A DNA stretch of 20,662 nt, taken from contig VFLB01000291.1 of the NCBI GenBank assembly GCA_009914645.1, positions 1 to 20,662 on the forward strand, given 5' to 3'. The notes under the pieces are model-generated. The model had not been told where the DNA came from. It searched no databases and saw only the letters and a list, made by a program, of their open reading frames with translations. Of the stretch, positions 18,270-20,247 are shown in pieces (within the stretch, counting starts at the first letter, position 1; the number at the start of each line of letters is the position of its first letter). A program made the position numbers and the translations under genes. This DNA is from Synechococcaceae bacterium Bin_79_3 (GTDB lineage Bacteria; Cyanobacteriota; Cyanobacteriia; PCC-6307; Cyanobiaceae).

Positions 18270-19547
18270 TTAACAGGCCTTCACAAGAGGTAATTCCTTA
18301 AACCTGGTGGTGTAACCCGGCGATAGATGCCCGCGGCGCATCAACCAGGGGGGCTGCAGCCCCGTTGCAGCCCACTGCAACGTACCCGCGCCAAAACGCG
18401 CATTTAGCTGATCCACCAATTGCATCAAGCATTCCCGCCTCTGCTGTTGCTGCGGGGATAAAGACACAAATAAATGCTGCTGCAACTGCTCTAGAGGCTG
18501 CAGTTCTTGCAACAACACCCCCGCTTTATGGAAGCGATACCCACTGCGAAATAACTGGGCCACCAAGGGCAATGCCGCCTGTAGCAACACTGCAGTGTCG
18601 TTGCTGGCTAGAGCCAATTTAATGGTGGCACTATTGCTGTAGAAACCTGATTGGAAGGGGCTGGTACGTATAAATACCGTGAGGCAGGCGGTGCGTTGCT
18701 GCTGCTGCCGCAGCTTCTCCGCTGCCCGCACCACATAGCTGGCTACCGCTTGGCGCAACAGTTGTAAATCCTGAATTGGCTGGCTGAAACTACGACTCAC
18801 GCAAGTTTCCCGTCTAGGGGAAGGCCCCTGCACTAAAGGCAAACAACTAATACCCCGCAGCTCCTGCTGCAGCCGCAAACCCACCACCCCCCACTGACGC
18901 CGCACCAGCGCAGGGTCTGCTTGGCTCAAAGCCCAGGCGGTGCTTAATCCCCGCAAGCGACACCAACGGGCCAAACGCTGCCCCACCCCCCAAATATCTT
19001 CTACCGGCACCAGCTCGAGCCAGGGTTGCAGCGCTGCAGCCGCAGGGAAACGAAATACCCCTGCCCGAGCTGGATCCACCTTGGCCAAACGATTAGCCAG
19101 CTTTGCAAGCACCTTTGATGAAGCCATGCCAACTGCAATGGATAAACCCAACTGCTGCCTCACCACCACCCGCAGTTCTGCTCCCCAAGCCAGCAAAGCC
19201 CCCGGCTCTAAAGCTGGTGTGCGGGCAAACGCTTCATCAACGGAATACACCTCCAACTCCGGCACTCGCGCCTCTATGCAAGCCATCACCCGCGAGCTCA
19301 TATCGCCATAAAGGGCATAGTTAGAACTACGCACCGCTACACCAAGGCTCTGCAACTGATTTGCCACCTTGAAATAGGGAGTGCCCATAGCAATCCCCAA
19401 CTGACGAGCCTCACGGCTACGGGCCACGATGCAGCCATCATTGTTAGACAACACCACCACAGGTCGCCCCTGCAATAACGGGTCAAATGCCTGTTCACAG
19501 GAGGCATAAAAGTTGTTGCAATCAATCAAGGCAAGGGCGCTAACCAC
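18270..19547 (-). CDS. umuC: DNA polymerase V catalytic subunit UmuC (Y-family)
   Basis: A 425-residue Y-family translesion polymerase, close to the 422 of E. coli UmuC. Motifs: ALIDCNNFYASCE (Asp9 binds metal), VVLSNNDGCIVARS, YALYGDMSSRV and YSVDEAF (Asp104, Glu105). A helix-hairpin-helix region follows at EDIWGVGQRLARWCRLRGL. In the C-terminal region QQHLF fits the beta-clamp binding pattern (E. coli UmuC has QLNLF), and the end (HLSPGYTTRFKELP) is typical. All catalytic residues are present. The start is GTG, 4 bases after the umuD stop, so the two are coupled. Codons are notably GC-rich and Leu/Gln-rich compared with the left end of the window. Control is probably through the LexA box before umuD. 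Confidence 0.95.
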   Translation of the reverse strand: MVSALALIDCNNFYASCEQAFDPLLQGRPVVVLSNNDGCIVARSREARQLGIAMGTPYFKVANQLQSLGVAVRSSNYALYGDMSSRVMACIEARVPELEVYSVDEAFARTPALEPGALLAWGAELRVVVRQQLGLSIAVGMASSKVLAKLANRLAKVDPARAGVFRFPAAAALQPWLELVPVEDIWGVGQRLARWCRLRGLSTAWALSQADPALVRRQWGVVGLRLQQELRGISCLPLVQGPSPRRETCVSRSFSQPIQDLQLLRQAVASYVVRAAEKLRQQQQRTACLTVFIRTSPFQSGFYSNSATIKLALASNDTAVLLQAALPLVAQLFRSGYRFHKAGVLLQELQPLEQLQQHLFVSLSPQQQQRRECLMQLVDQLNARFGAGTLQWAATGLQPPWLMRRGHLSPGYTTRFKELPLVKAC

Positions 19548-19551
19548 AGGC

Positions 19552-19911
19552 TTAAAGGGGGTGGATCACATGGGTTGCAACTCCCCAGATCTGCAATTCC
19601 GCAGCATCACCTAGATCGATGGGGGGATAAGCGGGATGGGCCGCTTGCAAACGCAAGCCACCACGAAAACGCTCTAAGCGTTTCAAAGTGAAAGCCCCTT
19701 CCCATATAGCCACCACCACTCTTCCGGGCCGAGGCTGCAAGCTGCGATCCACCAGCAGCAGGTCGCCATCGTGAATGCCAGCTCCTTGCATCGCTTCACC
19801 ACTTACCCGCCACAGGAAGGTGCTGATTGGATGGGGGATCAACAGCAGATTGAGATCCACCCCCGCTTCGATGTAGTCGTCGGCAGGACTGGGGAAGCCG
19901 GCCACCACCAT
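19552..19911 (-). CDS. umuD: UmuD' -like polymerase V accessory subunit, no N-terminal arm, protease serine replaced
   Basis: A 119-residue protein in the LexA/UmuD S24 family. It starts MVVAGFPSPADDY; from Gly5 it matches E. coli UmuD from Gly25 without gaps, so the self-cleaved arm (E. coli residues 1-24) is not encoded. The catalytic Ser60 position is Ala40 (SGEAM, codon GCG at 19792-19794), while the Lys97 position is Lys77 (FTLKRL). Both the arm and the nucleophile needed for RecA-stimulated cleavage are therefore missing, and the product corresponds to UmuD', the form active with UmuC. An upstream in-frame TAA at 19936-19938 limits any extension to 8 residues, too few to restore the arm. 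umuC follows after 4 bases. Confidence 0.92.
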   Translation of the reverse strand: MVVAGFPSPADDYIEAGVDLNLLLIPHPISTFLWRVSGEAMQGAGIHDGDLLLVDRSLQPRPGRVVVAIWEGAFTLKRLERFRGGLRLQAAHPAYPPIDLGDAAELQIWGVATHVIHPL

Positions 19912-19917
19912 AAAATC

Positions 19918-19931
19918 AATACATCTGTACT
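19918..19931 (-). promoter_or_regulatory. LexA (SOS) box upstream of umuD
   Basis: Read on the minus strand, AGTACAGATGTATT fits the cyanobacterial LexA box RGTAC-N3-DGTWCB at 13 of 14 positions; the C of GTWC is T here. It lies 6 bases before the umuD ATG. A -10-like TAAGAT (19933-19938) lies just upstream, so bound LexA would cover the likely start of transcription. The consensus is from memory. Confidence 0.65.
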
Positions 19932-19935
19932 GATC

Positions 19936-20247
19936 TTAACTGGGTTCCGGTGCTGCAGCCTGAGCCCAATCTTCCCAAACCACATCTTCGGCCGGTAGCG
20001 CAGCTGGTTGAGCTAATAGGGAGCGGCAATCATCTAGAAGTGCTTCCACCGTTTGCAAAGAGGCCAATTCCTGCGGATGGGGTGAAATCTGGTGCTGCAA
20101 CTGCAACTCCATAGCCGCCAGCCGTTGCTCCAACTTCACGAGCCGGTGGGAGAGGGTGGCAAGGGTTTCCGCCAATCCTTCGGTGCTGCGACTAATACGA
20201 AACGAAATGGGTTCCGACACAGAATCGGGAACAATTACTGAAATCAC
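19936..20247 (-). CDS. Small coiled-coil protein of unknown function upstream of umuDC
   Basis: A 103-residue protein from a GTG start; no strong ribosome site is seen. The N-terminus is beta-like (VIVPDSVSEPISFRIS). A heptad-patterned helix follows, TLATLSHRLVKLEQRLAAMELQL (about residues 31-53), consistent with a two-stranded coiled coil. A second helix (LQTVEALLDDCRSLL) leads to an acidic, Pro- and Trp-containing tail (EDVVWEDWAQ). There is no signal peptide or membrane segment. It ends 24 bases before umuD on the same strand, and its stop codon overlaps a possible umuD -10. Whether it belongs to the SOS transcript or is a separate upstream gene cannot be decided from sequence. I do not recognise the family. 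Confidence 0.65.
   Translation of the reverse strand: MISVIVPDSVSEPISFRISRSTEGLAETLATLSHRLVKLEQRLAAMELQLQHQISPHPQELASLQTVEALLDDCRSLLAQPAALPAEDVVWEDWAQAAAPEPS

Follow-up and report, generated by a model that had tools for sequence, protein, structure and literature searches.

In the textbook account, mutagenic repair lags behind DNA damage because UmuD must first cleave itself. The initial annotation of the window (the whole stretch of DNA analysed, 20,662 nucleotides from Synechococcaceae bacterium Bin_79_3) had proposed that its umuD encodes neither the N-terminal arm nor the catalytic serine, and that the polymerase V formed with it would be active as soon as made, with no timer set by the RecA filament. 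The locus thus raises the question of what exactly is encoded, in which order arm and serine were lost, and whether the dependence on RecA was lost along with them.

The umuD gene of the window and its surroundings

The open reading frame, strand and coordinates of umuD were as annotated (Table 1). In a phmmer alignment, its product matched Escherichia coli UmuD' (1umu) with an E value of 2.4e-25. In the SGDSM motif, the Ser was aligned with Ala40, and in FTVKKL, the first Lys was aligned with Lys77; these are the catalytic positions that we take to be Ser60 and Lys97 in the E. coli numbering, and the loss of the serine and the retention of the lysine were thus confirmed. The alignment had been described as gapless from Gly25 to the end. 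The Gly25 start region was found as described, but the window protein has one additional residue just past the Lys97 region, giving a single one-residue gap.

The ATG codon lies four residues ahead of the glycine equivalent to Gly25 (Gly5). An in-frame stop is present 9 codons 5' of umuD, so that at most 12 residues can precede Gly5 whichever start codon is used, which rules out an arm made from an alternative start. The arm is therefore not encoded, in agreement with the initial annotation, and the space before umuD does belong to another gene, as the same stop ends a 103-aa ORF conserved in relatives.

The product belongs to Peptidase_S24 (PF00717; E value of 1e-24, 86.9 bits against a curated cut-off of 23.3). 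A predicted model, with a pLDDT of 87.3 overall and below 50 for residues 1 to 8, gave 1umu_A as the best Foldseek match (TMt, 0.84; rmsd, 1.8), which points to the UmuD' fold. The N-terminal segment of UmuD', GFPSPADDYIEA, is intact. An autoproteolytic UmuD requires a Ser/Lys dyad and an arm with a cleavage site; in the window, the dyad positions hold Ala40 and Lys77, and there is no such arm. We regard a UmuD' encoded as such as the best reading of the window protein, with its anatomy well supported and its function predicted.

Table 1. Positions of the features described in the text
Feature	Sequence	Coordinates	Strand	Description
umuD	window	19552-19911	minus	119 aa, ATG start, UmuD'-like form, MVVA ahead of GFPSP
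codon 40 of umuD	window	19792..19794	minus	GCG (Ala), place of the catalytic Ser60 codon
codon 77 of umuD	window	19681..19683	minus	AAA (Lys), Lys97 equivalent
umuC	window	18270..19547	minus	425 aa, GTG start, 4 nt past umuD stop; IMS, IMS_C, DUF4113
LexA-box match, AGTACAGATGTATT	window	19918..19931	minus	12/13 specified positions of AGTACWNWTGTACT; 6 nt between its end and ATG
conserved 103-aa ORF	window	19936..20247	minus	same frame as umuD; ends just upstream of LexA box
stand-alone arm-bearing Ala60/Arg97 paralogue	L040	2914-3432
same, two copies	L045	3001-3357 and 4241-4576
same	L269-L284

On the minus strand, the genes follow one another in the order 103-aa ORF, 24-nt gap, umuD, 4-nt gap and umuC, so that umuD is coupled to its own umuC, as had been stated. 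The UmuC of the window carries DUF4113 (E value of 3.4e-21), a region related to RecA binding according to an excerpt of PMC6511836. The LexA-box consensus was taken from the available text of PMC3091678. The match upstream of umuD was the sole place in the window, both strands included, scoring at least 12, and when the 200 nt upstream of umuD were shuffled 5000 times, its score was never equalled. By its sequence, this candidate box would place the genes in the SOS (LexA) regulon, and control by LexA is predicted from it. The 103-aa ORF had no Pfam match. Its tblastn matches (E value of 0.01) were restricted, among all the loci compared, to those of g1, g25 and g33, and it lay upstream of umuD at every locus examined of the unarmed clade described below. 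Its product is coiled-coil-like, and it is mostly in the frame of umuD (window, L002, L003, L005 and L151-L157).

The window UmuD shares with E. coli UmuD' the S24 fold, the GFPSPA start region, about 40% identity in the Foldseek alignment and the coupling to umuC. However, the E. coli form is produced by RecA-stimulated self-cleavage via Ser60/Lys97, whereas that of the window is encoded directly and has Ala in place of Ser60. HumD of phage P1 is a stand-alone UmuD' form that starts with MGFPSP and has an annotated LexA site just upstream. The window protein is similar to HumD in being encoded from about Gly25 but not in lacking a umuC of its own: no umuC was found beside the phage gene in the 1.5 kb read, whereas the window umuD adjoins umuC. 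HumD, inspected by eye, still has a Ser and a Lys in the catalytic positions, and the window UmuD is therefore one step beyond it. UmuDAb of Acinetobacter, in the partial text available on it, is another UmuD homologue with an altered N terminus and role; its N terminus is extended rather than shortened, and it acts as a repressor.

Order of arm loss and serine loss among relatives

The window is a contig of a fragmented genome (G000; 1.47 Mb, 77% complete, 347 contigs), a state in which an error of sequencing or assembly, or a misplaced start codon, might be suspected. The closest public relatives were Synechococcus sp. Cruz CV12-2-Slac-r (L002), with a UmuD 99% identical to that of the window, and S. 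lacustris Tous (L003), with one 92% identical. Codon 40 is GCG in all three, against TCG in L004, L005 and L012, and the upstream in-frame stop is common to the three genes as well. Ala likewise occupied the Ser60 column in two independent clusters of homologues, P0006 and P0001, the latter with 56 member sequences. A sequencing error at codon 40, the first objection foreseen by the initial annotation, is therefore unlikely, and the artefact explanation as a whole, refuted for practical purposes, retains almost no probability.

Ala at this position is rare. Among the best 120 of 1076 homologues, 118 had Ser/Lys and 2 had Ala/Lys at columns 60/97. At 68 public genome loci (74 found, minus six short Treponema matches), the counts were 60 Ser/Lys, 2 Ala/Lys (L002 and L003) and 6 Ala/Arg.

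The umuD gene of the S. lacustris group is under purifying selection. Its dN/dS was 0.035 between the window and L002, 0.074 between the window and L003, and 0.099 between L002 and L003; that of umuC within the Ala group was 0.059 to 0.071 (window-L003, 0.071). A pseudogene was rejected on these low values together with an open frame in three genomes. The mean distance to 17 arm-bearing genes was 0.296 to 0.311 for S. lacustris-group UmuD, against 0.241 to 0.280 for its sisters. Thirteen positions were specific to the group, and five of them (34, 40, 42, 43 and 48) surround the former nucleophile. Either a changed role or relaxed constraint would account for this faster change.

The initial annotation had expected arm loss and the Ser-to-Ala change to occur together in one clade, the nucleophile being no longer needed once the arm was gone. 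We read the umuC-linked UmuD at 81 loci of the family group f1 (Cyanobiaceae-like), namely, 80 fetched regions, minus 6 with no UmuD within 1.3 kb and 2 with UmuD at the cut edge, plus 9 others. The GFPSP motif was present in 63 of the 81 proteins, of which 60 had Ser60 and 3 (window, L002 and L003) had Ala60; position 97 was Lys in 62 of these 63 and Arg in one (L226, G016). In a UmuD tree of 112 rows, with few columns and bootstrap values not fully settled, g1, g25 and g33 formed a single unarmed clade (support, 96/92), and the three Ala60 rows were nested within it (100/100). Eight rows of this clade have Ser60, their leaders being 6 residues long in five rows (g25), 11 in two (g33) and 18 in one (L005/G044); we called them unarmed because the LPLA motif before VAAGFPSP, common in arm-bearing relatives, was missing by eye. 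Like the window gene, they have the same upstream ORF and the coupling to umuC. One of them, L005/G044, is labelled S. lacustris and belongs to the same genus, and Ala60 is thus found in three of the four genomes of the genus, not in all. The arm was therefore lost before the serine, which was lost only once in the unarmed clade.

A second and independent unarmed group, Cyanobium-like, kept Ser and Lys in all rows read. Since this group and HumD both retain the dyad, arm loss alone does not drive the loss of the nucleophile. The Ser-to-Ala change was also found in arm-bearing proteins, the Cyanobium paralogues with Ala60 and Arg97 described below. A single event for arm and serine is ruled out by the eight unarmed Ser60 rows and the second unarmed group, and the expectation that both losses go together was not borne out.

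Between the end of the LexA-box match and the Gly25 codon, the S. lacustris group has 6 codons, g25 has 8, g33 has 14 to 15 and G044 has 20; most of the arm-bearing relatives have 20 to 60. The match likewise ends 6 nt before the ATG in g25. One rearrangement is the simplest reading of a 103-aa ORF and an operator adjoining the Gly25 codon.

Possibly complementary UmuD copies in Cyanobium-like genera

At the remaining 18 of the 81 loci, the umuC-linked UmuD had neither the arm nor GFPSP, and Ser60 and Lys97 were kept in all 18. The same dyad was found in all 27 unarmed GFPSP-less homologues of the protein collection (P0242-P0268). In the 112-row tree, rows of this form made up one clade of 19 (95/96). 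The genomes carrying it also encoded a stand-alone S24 paralogue that has the arm, GFPSP, Ala60 and Arg97 (Table 1), L282 being an Ala/Arg paralogue. Among the best 120 of 3667 homologues of one such paralogue, 116 were Ala/Arg, 3 Ser/Lys and 1 Ser/Arg. The arm-bearing paralogues formed a clade of 23 rows (100/99), one of them a divergent Gly/Arg copy, and its sister was the UmuD of G030 (97/80); G030 and G139, both of genus g31, lack the paralogue and carry a UmuD of the ordinary kind. The LexA-box score upstream of 22 paralogues was at least 11 in 12 of them and 9 to 10 in 10, with a shuffle P value below 0.05 in 18 of the 22. A umuD duplication in Cyanobium gracile is mentioned in the part of PMC5101192 that was available.

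Out of 151 family genomes searched, 129 had a match and 128 were read (G098 is a fragment). Only arm- or GFPS-bearing Ser/Lys copies were found in 100 genomes, G027 (GFPSA) included; 20 had the pair, and 3 had the Ala/Arg paralogue alone (G022, G059 and G111; 62%, 89% and 77% complete). The others were the 3 Ala/Lys genomes of the S. lacustris group, one Ser/Arg genome (G016) and one with Arg at position 60 and Lys at 97 (G073). The unarmed Ser/Lys form was accompanied by the arm-bearing dead form in 20 of 20 genomes, a co-occurrence that reflects shared ancestry and not twenty tests, because each form has one origin. In G059 (L287) and G111 (L204), no UmuD was found upstream of umuC and the arm-bearing dead paralogue lies elsewhere. 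These two genomes count against an obligate pair unless the partner copy lies in the missing sequence.

Several other observations were made. Some Cyanobium-like genomes carry a third S24 protein (L285, L147, L148 and L363), which is short and has Gly at Ser60 and Arg at Lys97. P0203 and P0239 combine Ser60 with an LLRRL-type Arg97 region and are possibly recombinants or assembly chimeras of the two paralogues. The single arm-bearing copies with Arg at Ser60 (L356, G073) or at Lys97 (L226, G016) may reflect assembly errors. Outside the cyanobacteria, an arm-bearing Ala60/Arg97 UmuD was found in Marinospirillum perlucidum (L067, 2911-3357; L321) away from umuC, which is elsewhere (L320), as an independent case. 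In genus g30 (L288/G138, L186/G071 and L189/G029), umuD and umuC are spaced by about 1.1 to 1.3 kb, and in G071 and G029 an oppositely oriented ORF of 215 aa lies between them; L358 and L359 are the full umuD copies for L186 and L189.

The Cyanobium pair resembles an engineered one. According to an excerpt of PMC5342242, E. coli UmuD18, an arm-truncated active protease, and UmuD S60A, an arm-bearing dead protein, form heterodimers, and the arm of S60A is cut efficiently in trans on the RecA filament. The engineered pair is a laboratory construct, whereas the Cyanobium pair is natural. The likeness suggests that the latter may be a natural split UmuD. In the pol V model, as given in the available part of PMC12926913, the two UmuD' subunits have different jobs, one sitting on the UmuC tail and the other inserting its N terminus into UmuC, which makes a division of these jobs between two genes plausible. 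We therefore propose, tentatively and as a possibility that we hold to be less than even, that picocyanobacteria dismantled the self-cleavage of UmuD on two or more occasions, by different routes. In S. lacustris, UmuD would have lost arm and nucleophile and be born active. In Cyanobium, it would have been duplicated and split into an obligate heterodimer, in which the umuC-linked protease, devoid of arm and cleavage motif, may cut the arm of the separate Ala60/Arg97 protein in trans on the RecA filament, the two UmuD' jobs being assigned to two genes.

Proposed control and role of the S. lacustris gene

A second intact umuD could supply a cleavable form, as the initial annotation had pointed out. 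PF00717 gave one match in G000 (77% complete), one in G105 (86%) and two in G080 (98%), the second match of G080 being LexA; no second umuD was thus found by PF00717 in these three genomes. RecA was present in all four genomes of the genus. LexA was found in G080 and in G044 (95% complete), and not in G000 or G105. By eye, the Ser, the Lys and the Ala-Gly site are present in G080 LexA.

The explanation that we consider best, and rather probable, is that UmuD of the S. lacustris group is encoded in a pre-processed state. A rearrangement or deletion in the common ancestor of g1, g25 and g33 most likely placed an SOS operator and a small neighbouring ORF only a few codons away from Gly25, and this would have removed the arm. 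At a later time, and in S. lacustris alone, one transversion from TCG to GCG would have altered a nucleophile that had become idle or was seldom used. The UmuD' fold would have been kept, with UmuD and UmuC translated from one transcript. After damage, inactivation of LexA by the RecA filament would allow umuDC to be transcribed, and UmuD'2C could form without the cleavage step, which takes 20 to 40 min in E. coli (PMC3901139, excerpt). The active mutasome would still require a RecA subunit and ATP, as does UmuD'2C in the available portions of PMC6511836 and PMC12926913. In marine Synechococcus, mitomycin C induces recA, lexA and umuC (PMC3744912, excerpt).

The LexA-box match, LexA, RecA and DUF4113, together with the biochemistry of E. 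coli UmuD'2C, therefore make it likely that a ready UmuD' is induced by SOS with no cleavage delay and with RecA still needed. Of the timer-free polymerase proposed by the initial annotation, the loss of the cleavage delay is retained, but not independence from RecA, which is likely still required at both LexA and the mutasome. Regulation is probably exerted when the genes are switched on, not by cutting of the protein. Binding to UmuC, activity and freedom from arm-based turnover signals are predicted for the protein. According to PMC5342242, in the part available, E. coli UmuD18, which retains 7 arm residues, closely resembles UmuD' when binding is assayed and is less proficient than UmuD in UV mutagenesis; a short-armed protein therefore need not equal UmuD'. 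Also counted against the pre-processed UmuD were the failure to find LexA in G000 and G105 and the faster change of S. lacustris UmuD.

This accelerated change, which includes several substitutions near what was the active site, could instead indicate that UmuD has taken on a new role and no longer activates a polymerase; it might, for instance, constitutively manage or restrain RecA or other polymerases, and the forms of E. coli UmuD bind many partners (PMC5342242, excerpt). Such a role is unlikely, as umuD still lies directly upstream of umuC under the same selection and the N-terminal segment of UmuD' is intact. The losses of arm and serine might also be early steps in the loss of pol V from a streamlining lineage. 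At an E value of 1e-60, a umuC match was present in 128 and absent from 23 of the 151 family genomes, many of them incomplete, and pol V therefore appears to be losable. However, the open frames, the low dN/dS of both genes and the retained LexA-box match speak against decay, which is very improbable.

An arm supplied in trans by another S24 protein, as may happen in the Cyanobium group, has a precedent in the pairs of related genera. For S. lacustris, we regard it as having only a slim chance, since the 98%-complete G080 has UmuD and LexA as its only PF00717 matches, and an Ala40 UmuD could not cut a partner. With LexA as the sole companion of UmuD in G080, a split UmuD within S. lacustris was rejected.

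The arm-less state was already known from HumD and the unarmed relatives, which keep Ser60; what is new is the loss of the serine in a copy coupled to umuC. In the literature searched, with subscription literature mostly outside its scope, we found no report of a natural UmuD devoid of its serine or of a split UmuD. If the Cyanobium pair works as proposed, the asymmetric UmuD' homodimer of pol V would become a genetically separable heterodimer in which the jobs of the two subunits could be tested apart. A pre-cut chromosomal umuDC without the serine, in an abundant sunlit freshwater phototroph, would be a natural test of how much weight the cleavage delay carries.
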